Source: Psittacicella hinzii (GTDB lineage: Bacteria > Pseudomonadota > Gammaproteobacteria > Enterobacterales > Psittacicellaceae). From it: DNA of 64,000 bases. Below the pieces are notes generated by a model that was not told the DNA's origin, did no database searches, and saw only the letters and a list, made by a program, of their open reading frames with translations. Position numbers and translations under genes: made by a program. Positions 35,075 to 53,441 of the stretch are shown here, piece after piece. Position 1 is the stretch's first letter. Each line of letters starts with the position of its first letter. The DNA is taken from positions 1-64,000 of the forward strand of contig NZ_NRHC01000016.1 of NCBI RefSeq assembly GCF_003585885.1, read 5' to 3'.

Positions 35075-36640
35075 CTATTCATCAATATCTAAATCATCAT
35101 CTGAGAAAGATAATTTATTTTGTGGCTCTGCTTTTTCTTCTGTAGTAGGTGTAACAAATAAGTTACTACTTTCAGGTAAAGCTGGAGAGCGATATTCTTC
35201 TGTTGCTGGAGCACTGCCTTGCTGCGCTGCTTTAATAGCTGCTAAAAATTGTTGCATTGTTGCTTCATCTAAAGAAGAAAGAGAAGCTAATAAATCATTT
35301 GAAGCAGTATTTGCTGCAGGAGCTGCAGGTGTTTTTTCAGCAGCTGGAGCTACTTGAGTTTCACCTAAAACTTTAGCACCATTATTTGGTTTAATTGCTA
35401 AACCATCATTGCTCTCAACTGAAGATTTAGTGCTTGGTTTGCTACTTGCAACAGGAGTAGGTGTTTGGTAGCTACTTGCTGTTTGCGCAATAGGTTGAGC
35501 GTTTTCTTTATTGCTATGCGAACCCATACCAGTAGCAACAATAGTTATATTTAAACGAGGAGTGTTGTCTTCGTTGTCTGGTAATTTGTTATAAGCGAAG
35601 ATAACTTGAGGTCCATTATTTTGGATTGACTCAATTTTATCATCATCTAAGCTATCAAGATCTTCTAATAGTTCATCAAAGCTTTCTACTTCTTGATCTT
35701 TAACGCGAGAGAAGCGAGATACAAACTGATCCATAATTCTTTGGGTAAAGTGACTTGAACACTCTAAAAGAATTAAGAAAGCAGTAGCTTGTTCAATATT
35801 AGAACTTGTAATTAATGGTGAAGTTGTAACTTCTTTATAGATATAGTCGATTGTACCTTCTGGATCTTCAGTAATTGAATCTAATCCTTCACCTTCTAAA
35901 CTACGATATAAGATTTGTGATTTACCACCATTATTTAGGATAGTTTTTAAATCTTCGAAGTCTGTATTAATCGTTGTTGGGTTACGGATAATTTTAATTA
36001 CGCCAGAAATTGCGTTTGAAAGAATTTTATTAGCTTCATCAAGCCCACGAGTATATTCATAATCAGGATAGAAATCAACAATTTTTTGATTGTCAATCAT
36101 GATTAATGAATCAGAATGGCGATAAAGATTTTTAATACCGTAATATGCTTCACGCATACGGTTTTCATATTTAAATGGTAAAGTTACTAGTGATACTACA
36201 ATTGCTCCTGCATTTTTTGCAGCTTCAGCCACAATTGAAGAACCTAAAGTTCCCGTACCACCGCCCATACCGGCTGTAATAAATACTAAGTCAGTACCAC
36301 TTACAATTTCTGTGATTTCTTGGATAGCTTCTACAGTGGCATTACGTCCAACGTTAATATTAGCCCCTGCACCTTTACCTTTTAGTAAATTTTTACCAAG
36401 TACTAATTTATTTTCACACTGTAAGTTATTTAAACAATTCTCATCAGTGTTAAAAATATAGTGAGAAACACTTTTACCTACATTATCCATGTAGCCCGGT
36501 TGTTTATAAAGATAGTCAACGGCATTGTTACCAGCTCCACCAACTCCGATAACAATAATTTTTTCTAATTGATCTGTTTCTTTCATTTCTGATTTACCGC
36601 CGTTCGCATTCAAAACAGGAAGAACAATGTCATTTTCCAT
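35075..36640 (-). CDS. ftsZ: cell division protein FtsZ, divergent
   Basis: Tubulin-like GTPase that forms the division ring. The core is clear: IGVGGAGNNAV (31-41), NTDENCLNNL, GKGAGANINVGRNA (88-101) and the T7 loop NTDFED (225-230). The GTP signature reads GGGTGTL with Leu132, not the usual final Gly. An acidic stretch (about 313-342) interrupts the C-terminal subdomain. A linker of about 110 residues rich in Ala/Pro/Thr/Ser follows, and the end is LSFSDDDLDIDE, with no D-I-P-x-F-L-R-type binding peptide. 521 residues against 383 in E. coli. The ATG at 36586 (MKETDQLEK…) fits the family N-terminus better and has GGCGG upstream, so it may be the true start. Confidence 0.9.
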   Translation of the reverse strand: MENDIVLPVLNANGGKSEMKETDQLEKIIVIGVGGAGNNAVDYLYKQPGYMDNVGKSVSHYIFNTDENCLNNLQCENKLVLGKNLLKGKGAGANINVGRNATVEAIQEITEIVSGTDLVFITAGMGGGTGTLGSSIVAEAAKNAGAIVVSLVTLPFKYENRMREAYYGIKNLYRHSDSLIMIDNQKIVDFYPDYEYTRGLDEANKILSNAISGVIKIIRNPTTINTDFEDLKTILNNGGKSQILYRSLEGEGLDSITEDPEGTIDYIYKEVTTSPLITSSNIEQATAFLILLECSSHFTQRIMDQFVSRFSRVKDQEVESFDELLEDLDSLDDDKIESIQNNGPQVIFAYNKLPDNEDNTPRLNITIVATGMGSHSNKENAQPIAQTASSYQTPTPVASSKPSTKSSVESNDGLAIKPNNGAKVLGETQVAPAAEKTPAAPAANTASNDLLASLSSLDEATMQQFLAAIKAAQQGSAPATEEYRSPALPESSNLFVTPTTEEKAEPQNKLSFSDDDLDIDE

Positions 36641-36784: not shown

Positions 36785-38131
36785 TTACATCTTAAAGAAT
36801 TTTAAAAGAGACTCAAAGAACCCTACTTTTATAGGCTTAGGTCTAGCTAAGTGGAAATTGTAAATTAATCCAAAAGAAGTAGTAAATTGATCTCTAGTCG
36901 CTTGATATAGTTTATAGCATTCTCTACCAGCATTATCAACCATAAAATGGCTAAAACTAAAACAGATCCCAGGTCTAAAGTAAACCTTATTGCTTACTTT
37001 TAACACTTTGTGCTCAATTTTTAATTGCTCTTCACTAGTGTAATAGATTAGAGTTCTAGATTTTAGATTTGCAGATGGAAGAAAGCTATGTGAGTAATAT
37101 TGCATCCCTGTAACTAGGTTAAGCGAAGTTTGTTCAAGTTGTTGACCATTGCTAGTTAATTTTTCTTCTTTTTGTTTATTGAAGTACTCAATTTCATTTT
37201 CTAGTCTTTCTGAGAAGACTAAAGAAGCAACAGCTGAAACATCTTGTAAATCTGCTCCATACCCCATGATATTTAATTGTACTTTATTAAAAAAGTTTGG
37301 GGTAAATCTTAAACCATCACGATCAAGTTCTTTCAATTTGTCATAGCAAAGATGAAAAACTTCTTGTAAAGGTAAAACAATAGACTCTTCAGTATCACTA
37401 ATGGTAAAGTTTACATTAAATAAAGGAATTCTAAAGTTATGTTTAGATCTAGTAACTAAAAAATTAAATCCACTTAAGCCGTTATAAACAGCTTCAAGAG
37501 GTAAAGGTCTTTTTATTTTTGGATTATTATTTATGCTATTAACGATTTCTTTAAAACCTTTTTCTACACTAAGAGACTCAATAAAATAGTCATTTTGATC
37601 TTTTATAAAGTTAATCCAAGTAGAGTTATAGCATAAGTTTATATTTATTAAATAAGGTTTATTTACTTGATTCTCATCAACTAGTAAGGTTGTAGCTGCT
37701 GTGTCAGCTGTACATTTGAAAATAACCTCATCGCCTAAAATAACATCATCCGCAAAAAAGTAATTTTTAAGAATTTCTTTTAAAATGTGAGTTTGAATTG
37801 GAGATTGTTTTCTTAATTCAGAGACAATAATATTGTAAGAGATTCTTTTTACGACTAATTTGTCATCAGCGATATCTAAATTTAAATCTTTAGCTTTTTC
37901 TCGATTCTCGATTTTAAGATGGTTATCAAGAAAATCTTGAATATTCTCTACAACTGAGTGAGTAAATAAATCTTTGTTGGTAATATTACCAAAATTAATT
38001 CCTTGGAGGATTCCTCTTTTTAAAGCTAAGAGATTTACCGTTTCATTTTCAACATATCCAGCAGCTAAATTGATTTCAGAAGAGTCAATATGGATTGATA
38101 AAATCAAGTTCTTTGCTTTATTTTTTGCCAC
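36785..38131 (-). CDS. ftsA: FtsA-like division protein with degenerate nucleotide site
   Basis: Assigned from position between ftsQ and ftsZ, its length (448; E. coli 420), and the order of weakly preserved FtsA/actin-fold blocks. Phosphate-1 is SIHIDSSEINLAAG (about 12-25) where FtsA has G-x-DIGT. Phosphate-2 is LININLCYNST (about 161-171) where DIGGGT is expected. The adenosine motif is NIMGYGADL. The late block VTGMQYYS stands for AVGLLHYG. The C-terminal GFFESLLKFFKM is a good amphipathic membrane-targeting helix. The catalytic acidic residues and glycines are mostly replaced, so ATP binding is doubtful. The role is inferred as membrane tether for FtsZ. Confidence 0.75.
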   Translation of the reverse strand: MAKNKAKNLILSIHIDSSEINLAAGYVENETVNLLALKRGILQGINFGNITNKDLFTHSVVENIQDFLDNHLKIENREKAKDLNLDIADDKLVVKRISYNIIVSELRKQSPIQTHILKEILKNYFFADDVILGDEVIFKCTADTAATTLLVDENQVNKPYLININLCYNSTWINFIKDQNDYFIESLSVEKGFKEIVNSINNNPKIKRPLPLEAVYNGLSGFNFLVTRSKHNFRIPLFNVNFTISDTEESIVLPLQEVFHLCYDKLKELDRDGLRFTPNFFNKVQLNIMGYGADLQDVSAVASLVFSERLENEIEYFNKQKEEKLTSNGQQLEQTSLNLVTGMQYYSHSFLPSANLKSRTLIYYTSEEQLKIEHKVLKVSNKVYFRPGICFSFSHFMVDNAGRECYKLYQATRDQFTTSFGLIYNFHLARPKPIKVGFFESLLKFFKM

Positions 38132-43100: not shown

Positions 43101-43136
43101 AAAAGTAAACCATGACTAAAGTCATGGTTTACTTTT
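43101..43136 (-). terminator. terminator overlapping the murD-ftsW stop codon
   Basis: 16-bp perfect stem AAAAGTAAACCATGAC (43101-43116) / GTCATGGTTTACTTTT (43121-43136) with loop TAAA. The fusion gene's TGA (43122-43124) and last codons lie in the right-hand arm. It separates murD-ftsW from murG. Confidence 0.85.
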
Positions 43137-45890
43137 ACGTGCTTTTTTAAGGTGCTTGAATTTTTTATCTTTAGAGAATTTTTCCGCGAGGAAATTGAAA
43201 AAGCTTAAGACTATATCTTGAGAACGTCCCTCTTTAAAGGTATGTCCATTCGCGATAAGTCGGTTTTCATAGTCAACACGCATGGTTATACCTAAAGCGG
43301 TAAAAGTCACTAGGTATGACGATCCACCGTAAGATATTAATGGGTGGGTACTACCATCTGTTGGTAGAAAAGCTACGGTCATGCCTAAGTTATATAACGA
43401 TTGATATGCTAACCACAGTACAAAGGTAAAAACTAAAATAGCTTGGAAAGGTCTTTTATAGATAAAGAATGTTTGATGAGAAATTTTGAACATTCTTAAG
43501 AAAAGTAAGATTTCAAGCGTAACTAAAATAATTATACCTATGTAACCAAATTCTTCTCCAAAGATTGCTAATATGTAGTCCGTATTTGCTTCTGTTAGAT
43601 ACCCAGATTTAAAAATAGAATTTCCAAGTCCAACTCCCCAAAATCCTCCATGAGAGAATGCAGAGATAGAGTTAATAACTTGATATGATTTTCCATAAGG
43701 ATCTGAATAAGGATCTAAGAAACCTGTAATACGATTCATTAAGTAGGCTTTATTAGTAACGAAGATTACTAATAAAATTACCATTACTATAATAAATGGA
43801 GCTGCTCGGTAAGTTAGGGTCTTTAAGTTAGGGGTAATGTAAATTATAGTAATTGTACTAATAACACCTAACATTAAAGTCGAACCAAAGTCAGGTTGAA
43901 GTAAAAGCAAAATAGACATTATTGCTAAAAAGCAAGTAAAGCCTAGCATATCTATGAGCTTAAAATTCCTATCTTGCGAAATTGCAACTAAATAGTGAGA
44001 TAAGTAGATAAATGTACAAAGTTTTGCTAATTCCACAGGCTGGAACGTAAAACCCATGATACTTATCCATCGTTGAGCACCATTAAGGGAATGCCCAAAA
44101 GTGTGTACAAAGAGGAGTGCTCCAATTGTCCCTATAGACATAAGCGGTAGTAAAGTTCGCCATAATGACGAGTTTATACACAAGGAGGTCAAGAAGGCAC
44201 CAACCCCAATAACCATTAGTAAGGCTTGCTTAGGATTAAATATAGCACCAGTTTGCTTTACTGTCATATAAGTAGAAGCTGAGAATACCGTAATAATACC
44301 TAAGCCAAAGATAGAGAATATTAAAGCTAAAAGATAGCCATCATAAAGCTTAATATCATATGGCTCTTTATGATTTTTTTCACCTAGATAGATTAATTTA
44401 TGAATAAATGATTGGGCAGTATTTAGAGTTTTAACTCCAATACGCTTAAATCTACTAGGTTTTTGATACTTTTTTGCAATTTCAGTAAAAACCTGCCCTC
44501 TGTGTTCGTAGTTTTTAAATTGATCTAGACTAGCACAACCTGGACTTAAAAGTACAACATCGTTACTTTTAAGTTGAGGAGCAATATGGTTCATTACTTG
44601 CTCTAAAGTACCCTCTTTAAAAACTTGTGCGTTAGAAGCGCATTTTGCAACTTCTTCAGCATCACGTCCATAGCAAAGTACTTCAATATTTTTAATTTTA
44701 GCTACAGCTGGAGCCAGCTCACTAAAATCTTGTTTTTTCCCTTCTCCACCCATGAGAAGATAAAGCTTACCATTTTCATGCAGATCAATAGATCTTAGTG
44801 CAGACTCAACTGAACCTATGTTAGTTGCTTTACTGTCATTAATAAAGCGTACTCCATTGTTAGCTGTGTGCACAAGTTCAAATCTATGTGGTAATCCTTT
44901 AAAACTTTTTGCAGCTTCAAAGATTAATTTATCTTGTTGCTCTGAATGACCTTGTAAGGTTAAACGTACTAAAGCTATAGCAGCTAGGATATTCTCATAA
45001 TTATGTAATCCCTGTAATTGGAAATCTTTAACAGGAATTGAAACATATGATATCGAACTAGCATTACCGTAAAGAGCAGGAATGTTTAATGTTTTCTTTT
45101 TAGGATCATAAAAATATGAAGCTGGGTTATTTACTGGATCAGAAGTAAATGCGGTCATGTGTTTTTTAGCATTTTCATTTCCAGGCCATGTATTCTGGTC
45201 TATTTTGTTATATAGCAGACTTTGACTTAAGTCGTATATGTGGTGCTTAGCTTCAGAATACTCTTTAAAGCTTTCATATCTATCTAAGTGATCCGGTGTT
45301 ATATTTAAAATAGTACCGACACGAAGCTTTAAGTTTTTCGTGGTTTCTAGTTGGTAGCTCGAAAGTTCTAAAACATAGTAGTTAAATGTTTCACTTAAAG
45401 TAGACATGATAGGAATGCCTACATTACCAGCCATTGCAACATTGTAACCTAAGTGTTTTAAAATATGAGTAGTAAGCTCTGTAACGGTAGTTTTACCGTT
45501 AGATCCTGTAATCCCAATAACAGGGGCATTACGAAAGATTGGATCTTTTGACTCATTTTTTACACGTGCAAATAGCTCAATATCACCAATTACTTTAACT
45601 CCTTTTTCTAAGGCTAGAGTAAATGCTTGATGATTTTTTGGAATACCTGGAGAAACAATTAAAAAGTTCTGCTGCGCTAGTATTTCAGGAGTGTTTAATG
45701 GATATAAACTAACACTACTGTTAATTGATTGTAAAATAGATATTAATTCAAAATCAGGTTTGTCATCAAATAATGTAATTTGATATTGATTGTGATCTTG
45801 ATTAGTAAGTAGAAACTTAGCTGTTTCAAAACCTGATTTTTTTACCCCAACAATACCTATATTAATTTTACGTGATATTTGTAAGGACAT
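43122..45890 (-). CDS. murD-ftsW: MurD-FtsW fusion: UDP-MurNAc-Ala-Glu ligase joined to septal SEDS glycosyltransferase
   Basis: One uninterrupted 922-residue frame. Residues 1-476 are a full MurD: GITGSNGKTT (126-135), ELSSYQLETT, PDHLDRY, RFINDSKATN (348-357), LLMGGEGKKQDF, LLSPGCASLDQF. Residues 477-516 form a basic linker. Residues 517-880 are FtsW: GLGIITVFSAS, GAQRWI…QPVELAKL (605-624), LLLLQPDFGS (661-670), TEANTDYILAIFGEEFG (766-782, with the conserved acidic residues) and PLISYGGSS (850-858). The order equals separate murD and ftsW in dcw. Both FtsW's N-terminus and MurD are cytoplasmic, so topology allows the fusion. No second start or stop separates them. Confidence 0.95.
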   Translation of the reverse strand: MSLQISRKINIGIVGVKKSGFETAKFLLTNQDHNQYQITLFDDKPDFELISILQSINSSVSLYPLNTPEILAQQNFLIVSPGIPKNHQAFTLALEKGVKVIGDIELFARVKNESKDPIFRNAPVIGITGSNGKTTVTELTTHILKHLGYNVAMAGNVGIPIMSTLSETFNYYVLELSSYQLETTKNLKLRVGTILNITPDHLDRYESFKEYSEAKHHIYDLSQSLLYNKIDQNTWPGNENAKKHMTAFTSDPVNNPASYFYDPKKKTLNIPALYGNASSISYVSIPVKDFQLQGLHNYENILAAIALVRLTLQGHSEQQDKLIFEAAKSFKGLPHRFELVHTANNGVRFINDSKATNIGSVESALRSIDLHENGKLYLLMGGEGKKQDFSELAPAVAKIKNIEVLCYGRDAEEVAKCASNAQVFKEGTLEQVMNHIAPQLKSNDVVLLSPGCASLDQFKNYEHRGQVFTEIAKKYQKPSRFKRIGVKTLNTAQSFIHKLIYLGEKNHKEPYDIKLYDGYLLALIFSIFGLGIITVFSASTYMTVKQTGAIFNPKQALLMVIGVGAFLTSLCINSSLWRTLLPLMSIGTIGALLFVHTFGHSLNGAQRWISIMGFTFQPVELAKLCTFIYLSHYLVAISQDRNFKLIDMLGFTCFLAIMSILLLLQPDFGSTLMLGVISTITIIYITPNLKTLTYRAAPFIIVMVILLVIFVTNKAYLMNRITGFLDPYSDPYGKSYQVINSISAFSHGGFWGVGLGNSIFKSGYLTEANTDYILAIFGEEFGYIGIIILVTLEILLFLRMFKISHQTFFIYKRPFQAILVFTFVLWLAYQSLYNLGMTVAFLPTDGSTHPLISYGGSSYLVTFTALGITMRVDYENRLIANGHTFKEGRSQDIVLSFFNFLAEKFSKDKKFKHLKKARKSKP

Positions 45891-52760: not shown

Positions 52761-53441
52761 TTACTCGTTTGTCATAAGTAAAGGGATAGTTGTTGTAGGT
52801 ATTACTTTATTTTGTGGTAAGTAAGGAATTACAACTATAACCTCAGCTTCAGTGGAAATTGGAACCAAGTAAATCTTGTTTTTAGTTATTCTAATAATGT
52901 TAGATTTGGAGGTTAAGGATAAAAATTCTAGATATAAATTATCATTTGACAAAGTAAGAGAATTCTTATCAGCAAGTAACTGAGAATACTTAACAGTATT
53001 ATCAATCGATAGACGAGTAATATAAATTTTTGTAATAGCTAAAGCCAAAACAACTAAACAAAGAATAATGGTTAAGAAGAGTTTTGTGCTGAGATCTTTG
53101 TAAAGTATTTTTAGTGGAGTTAAGTTTGAATCCCAATTTAAATTGCCATAGATTTGTGCTATGTATTTATTGCGTCTTTCTTTAGTTTCTTCTTTGTAAT
53201 CTTTACTTTGCGCTTTTTGCTGATCAAAGCGATTTTCACTTAAATTTTCAACTAAATCCGCAGTAGCTGTTCCATTGGCTTGAGAAGCATCATTAACTTC
53301 TTGGGTACTTAAAGGTGTTGTCTCTTTCTCTGATGTCTCCTCTGGCATATCTGTCGAGAAAATTCCAGAGGTTTTAGAAGTCTTCTTATTTTTACCTTTA
53401 TTCTTCGCTTTCGAGTATTGAGGTGGTTTAAAGAAGTTCAC
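52761..53441 (-). CDS. ftsL: cell division protein FtsL with long cytoplasmic extension
   Basis: Identified from its position between rsmH and ftsI and from its architecture: a single membrane helix (about 120-141) followed by a short periplasmic region with coiled-coil character (LLADKNSLTLSNDNLYLEFLSL). At 226 residues it is almost twice E. coli FtsL (121). The excess is a disordered, charged N-terminal cytoplasmic region (1-119) rich in Lys, Thr, Glu and Gln, and a Pro/Thr-rich tail. Sequence similarity is weak, as is usual for FtsL. Confidence 0.8.
   Translation of the reverse strand: MNFFKPPQYSKAKNKGKNKKTSKTSGIFSTDMPEETSEKETTPLSTQEVNDASQANGTATADLVENLSENRFDQQKAQSKDYKEETKERRNKYIAQIYGNLNWDSNLTPLKILYKDLSTKLFLTIILCLVVLALAITKIYITRLSIDNTVKYSQLLADKNSLTLSNDNLYLEFLSLTSKSNIIRITKNKIYLVPISTEAEVIVVIPYLPQNKVIPTTTIPLLMTNE

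Follow-up and report, generated by a model that had tools for sequence, protein, structure and literature searches.

How is the division ring of a bacterium held at the membrane when its only FtsZ ends without the peptide on which the membrane adaptors dock? The FtsZ tail is a hub bound by FtsA, ZipA, MinC, SlmA and SepF. This question is raised by the division locus of Psittacicella hinzii, which belongs to a bird-associated genus of the Pasteurellales whose family comprises four genomes, all of this one genus. The window, by which we mean the whole 64,000-nucleotide stretch of chromosome analyzed here, carries every gene between 26.7 and 54.4 kb on the minus strand, in a division and cell-wall (dcw) cluster with rsmH, ftsL, ftsI, murE, murF, mraY, a murD-ftsW fusion, murG, murC, ddl, ftsQ, an FtsA-like ORF, ftsZ and lpxC. 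We note two further features of this cluster. In each of the three Psittacicella species, MurD (residues 10-473) and FtsW (519-877) form a single fused ORF of 922-927 aa (43122-45890, minus strand; L035:604-3387; L036:241-3012), and FtsL (52761-53441, minus strand; 226 aa) is extended at its N-terminus by about 110 residues, with the FtsL domain starting at residue 111.

The ORF at 35075-36640 (minus strand; 521 aa) is the only FtsZ of the genome. It matches PF00091 with 138 bits (cut-off 33; E 5e-40), and its best and sole relevant NCBIfam match is TIGR00065, where its 229.6 bits fall below the equivalog cut-off of 295.2; the Pfam search, taken to E 1, does not bring up the FtsZ C-terminal family. 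Because the TIGR00065 cut-off is missed, we call the ORF a divergent FtsZ ortholog on the grounds of fold, gene order and single copy. The AF2 model (mean pLDDT 63, with the core mostly at 70-95) adopts the usual FtsZ fold, and its core residues 24-373, C-terminal subdomain included, reach a TMt of 0.8-0.88 against solved FtsZs. That no second ftsZ exists, on which the preliminary description of this locus depended, is borne out by a single PF00091 match in the whole genome, whose completeness is 92%.

Purifying selection acts on ftsZ (dN 0.18-0.28 vs dS about 1-1.4 among three Psittacicella species); the nearest named relatives, identified through FtsZ, are Psittacicella melopsittaci B96_4 and P. 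hinzii 111. The T7 loop reads NTDFED, with N225, D227 and D230 invariant in the three species; loops T1 and T3 are retained too. The conservation of these residues leads us to expect GTP hydrolysis by Psittacicella FtsZ, and the protein most likely still assembles with GTP, as the kept catalytic and GTP-site residues suggest. That this ORF is the functional and sole FtsZ of Psittacicella is part of the explanation that we favor, to which, taken whole, we give somewhat better than an even chance. Four traits, namely a GGGTGTL signature, an acidic insert, a long linker and the lack of a C-terminal binding peptide (CTP), are shared by the three Psittacicella species whose ftsZ is assembled.

The signature GGGTGTG is usual in FtsZ and is not family-defining here. 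In the window's FtsZ the T4 loop, or tubulin signature, reads GGGTGTL (residues 126-132; 36245-36265, minus strand), with Leu132 (codon TTA at 36245-36247) standing for the last glycine. The leucine is invariant in the three Psittacicella species, while the 27 other FtsZ loci extracted from the order all have glycine there. The altered signature first read from the window alone is confirmed. A DNA pattern coding for GMGGGTGT and then for any codon whose first letter is not G, which is blind to Ala, Val, Asp and Glu at the last position and to earlier changes in the motif, occurs in three of 398 genomes of the phylum, and in an ftsZ only here; the two other matches are due to chance and are not FtsZ. 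Counted from the E. coli T108 numbering, Leu132 is position 109, and single changes in the T4 signature motif reduce GTP hydrolysis in other FtsZ (PMC3618327). The change need not imply a changed use of GTP in Psittacicella, since the rest of the GTP site and the catalytic residues are retained.

The second trait is an insert of 29 additional residues relative to other FtsZs, located between H10 and S9 in the C-terminal subdomain (residues 313-342; 35615-35704, minus strand). Psittacicella FtsZs have 92-93 residues between SPL(L/I) and T(I/V)VATG, as opposed to 63-64 in 21 other FtsZs, and residues 313-341 are exactly the low-confidence stretch of the AF2 model between the helix at 300-311 (H10) and the strand at 345-352 (S9). 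The length of the insert is constant across Psittacicella while its sequence varies. The preliminary description spoke of about 30 acidic residues at this place; the insert is real, and the wording should be that some 30 residues are acidic in character, with 12 acidic and 2 basic residues among 30. The acidic H10-S9 loop is placed near an interface described for E. coli (PMC3618327).

The C-terminal linker and tail (residues 374-521; 35078-35521, minus strand) are predicted to be disordered, with pLDDT under 50 over most of their length, and hold no canonical CTP. The linker spans 149-171 aa in Psittacicella (149 in the window's FtsZ) vs 56-123 in other members of the order, and none of the three species ends in P-x-F-L-R or a D-I-P-x-F-L-R-like motif. 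A frameshift hiding such a peptide is ruled out: no CTP-like peptide is found in any reading frame past the ftsZ stop in the three species, and all three share the ending S..(A/D)DDLxID(E/D). The missing binding peptide and the alignment of the relatives' C-termini thus agree with the first reading of the window.

Three elements of this region are candidates for a docking site. The last residues (510-521; 35078-35113, minus strand), with the shared ending given above, lie at the usual place of the CTP and are a candidate new docking motif. Six of the last 11 columns are identical in the three species vs 29 of 182 (16%) over the whole linker, a degree of conservation with p 0.003 at that place alone and 0.16 when taken as the linker-wide maximum for three species. 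A predicted helix at residues 459-473 (35222-35266, minus strand; AF2 pLDDT about 42-57), immediately preceded by a partly conserved DL(L/F)xxLSxxD, may serve as a docking helix, and the block EYxxPx(L/V)PE at residues 482-490 (35171-35197, minus strand), at identical positions in the three species, may be a displaced and diverged CTP.

The neighboring FtsA-like ORF (36785-38131, minus strand; 448 aa) occupies the ftsA position between ftsQ and ftsZ. Up to E 1 it matches neither a Pfam nor an NCBIfam family, and it has no sequence match in the PDB and no tblastn hit to the FtsA loci of the order. An N-terminal profile match to FtsA is found at E 7e-4, and a global profile alignment to FtsA yields nothing, the first 67 columns alone aligning. 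With a low-confidence structural model (pLDDT 35), the top Foldseek hits are FtsA (E 1e-6), and VIA-align 2 ranks FtsA first, matching residues 7-430 to T. maritima FtsA at Z 9.2; at this pLDDT the fold matches are no more than supportive. The identification as FtsA, by position, N-terminal profile and fold ranking of this model, is good but not certain. A canonical ftsA elsewhere in the genome was considered and rejected, the sole PF14450 match over the cut-off being MreB. The gene is under purifying selection in the three species (dN 0.23-0.35 vs dS 1.7-2.5). "Degenerate FtsA", as the ORF had been called, is too mild a term for a protein that no sequence family recognizes.

The ATP site of FtsA is thought to control membrane binding and polymerization. 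In the FtsA-like protein, alignments place HIDSS (residues 14-18; 38078-38092, minus strand) where the first phosphate motif, DIGTS, would stand. The second, DIGGGT, is found nowhere in the protein; its probable place is taken by NLCYNS (residues 165-170; 37622-37639, minus strand), an assignment made by hand from motif order and the strand pair 160-167/170-176, MAFFT having aligned the region otherwise. ATP binding is required elsewhere for FtsA polymerization and membrane attachment (PMC5832921), and the loss of the motifs here suggests a nucleotide-independent adaptor. The C-terminal amphipathic helix KVGFFESLLKFFKM (36788-36829, minus strand) is a probable membrane anchor, with a hydrophobic moment, the computed quantity on which this reading is based, of 0.47-0.62 and a net charge of +2 to +3 in the three species.

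The divergence is selective. Identity to Pasteurellaceae is 56-59% for Psittacicella LpxC vs 65-74% for other families, 44-47% vs 45-55% for Ddl and 27-31% vs 26-37% for FtsQ. For FtsZ it is 31-40% vs 58-66%, and FtsA gives no tblastn hit in Psittacicella while other families reach 48-51%. The trees agree: when the distance separating the window's species from the rest is divided by the distances within the rest, the ratio is 2.6 for FtsZ and 1.4 for LpxC. With LpxC, Ddl and FtsQ near the baseline divergence, the change is centered on FtsZ and FtsA.

Other division partners are affected as well. ZipA, whose gene elsewhere adjoins ligA, is undetected in all four Psittacicella genomes but was found in 53 of 59 genomes across the order, those of the three sampled Pasteurellaceae among them, so its loss, or divergence past recognition, is close to genus-specific. 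MinC, ZapD and ZapA are not recognizable in the Psittacicella genomes searched, nor is SepF, which is not expected in this group. Since ZapD is already missing from all three sampled Pasteurellaceae and MinC from two of them, these losses are older than the genus. Part of the trend therefore predates Psittacicella, comprising ZapD, mostly MinC, and erosion of the CTP in some Pasteurellaceae. Because FtsA itself escapes the family models here, an absent partner means one that is not recognizable; ZipA or the Zap proteins may exist in forms too diverged to detect, as a family search would have called FtsA absent too.

We consider it probable, if far from settled, that the FtsZ-FtsA membrane link has re-evolved without the canonical tail and without the canonical ATP switch of FtsA; both the membrane link and the docking site in Psittacicella we infer from sequence. 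FtsZ has lost the universal C-terminal docking peptide, and the adjoining FtsA-like protein, highly derived but with its C-terminal membrane helix kept, would still anchor FtsZ to the membrane. With its ATP-site motifs gone, it would act as a nucleotide-independent adaptor and would bind a different FtsZ element: the conserved acidic C-terminus DDLxIDE, another conserved linker block or the acidic H10-S9 insert. The co-evolved rewiring proposed in the preliminary description fits the joint absence of the tail, a canonical FtsA and a recognizable ZipA beside neighbors of near-usual divergence; co-evolution as such is not demonstrable with three species. A bolder version, in which a pseudo-ATPase FtsA is a constitutive membrane adaptor that binds either a new acidic motif at the FtsZ C-terminus or the H10-S9 insert, and ZipA, ZapA, ZapD and MinC are truly gone, is tentative, and we lean against it.

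It is rather unlikely that the canonical type of contact persists in disguise, with EYxxPx(L/V)PE as a diverged CTP that a C-terminal extension has moved inward and that still occupies the usual FtsA groove. This block is among the best conserved of the linker and by eye resembles the Pasteurellaceae ends WSPNSIPGFMRNGQ, and drift of the CTP is seen in the order, NNPNFFNPASFGRGER and DRLPSFQRFDPSS being examples. But the block lacks the F-L/M-R core, at least 31 residues separate it from the C-terminus, and the FtsA groove itself is not recognizable by sequence. We are equally doubtful of a tether independent of FtsA, formed by a lineage-specific membrane protein or a ZipA too diverged to detect, with the FtsA-like protein doing another job such as signaling to FtsN/FtsQLB/FtsWI. 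ZipA, ZapA and SepF are indeed undetected, FtsA is strongly altered, and other routes of FtsZ to the membrane exist, as in Odinarchaeal FtsZ1 (PMC12583498). However, no candidate protein was found for such a tether, the FtsA-like protein keeps its membrane helix, and FtsZ itself has no strong amphipathic helix, its moment being 0.44 or less at the N-terminus and in the linker.

Far less probable than either is decay, in which FtsZ and FtsA drift neutrally as division becomes less dependent on the Z-ring in a host-associated genus. In its favor, accessory genes of the divisome are undetected in several cases, and loss of divisome genes does occur in bacteria with reduced genomes (PMC10591338). 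On the other side, ftsZ and the ftsA-like gene are intact in three species under the purifying selection described above, the 2.3 Mb genome has ftsQ, ftsL, ftsI, ftsW and mur genes, L132 is invariant, and the insert holds its 92-93 spacing despite a varying sequence.

Comparison with known systems places the re-evolved link that we favor in context. Psittacicella shares with E. coli, where FtsZ docks on FtsA and ZipA, the GTPase fold, the T7 residues, a single FtsZ copy and the ftsQ-ftsA-ftsZ-lpxC order, and differs in the GGGTGTL signature, the 29-residue acidic insert after H10, a linker two to three times longer, the missing CTP, the lack of a recognizable ZipA, ZapA, ZapD or MinC, and an FtsA partner without ATP motifs. 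In the Pasteurellaceae, of the same order in the NCBI taxonomy, the CTP is altered in several members, and ZapD and, for the most part, MinC are missing; unlike Psittacicella, they have GGGTGTG, normal H10-S9 spacing, ZipA and a recognizable FtsA that shares about 50% identity with its counterparts in other families. Two loci of a Pasteurellaceae-like family (L059 and L060, family f9) have the eroded FtsZ tails NNPNFFNPASFGRGER and DRLPSFQRFDPSSIDRNDK, suggesting that CTP drift extends beyond Psittacicella within the order.

FtsZ without a CTP is already known in chloroplast FtsZ1 and red algal FtsZB, but these co-assemble with a second, CTP-bearing FtsZ (PMC8142252), whereas Psittacicella has one FtsZ. 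Odinarchaeal FtsZ1 resembles the Psittacicella protein in membrane attachment without a CTP-bound adaptor and carries an N-terminal amphipathic helix (PMC12583498), which Psittacicella FtsZ does not have. Other FtsZ variants were met during these comparisons. In another family of the order (genome G131), a tandem second ftsZ-like gene (L056:4258-5412), with GMGNGTGTG and the shortened tail LWQVPKVFK, lies between ftsA and the canonical ftsZ, and the FtsZ-like proteins of about 310 aa on four IMG/VR viral contigs (L068-L071) end right past the core, with no linker or CTP.

We found no paper on division in Psittacicella. A genus known from named strains and having neither the FtsZ tail nor the FtsA ATP site would test the need for both in division, and its FtsZ-FtsA pair would be a natural source of an orthogonal pair. 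Psittacicella would thereby show how the hub interface of an essential machine is exchanged while the cell keeps dividing.
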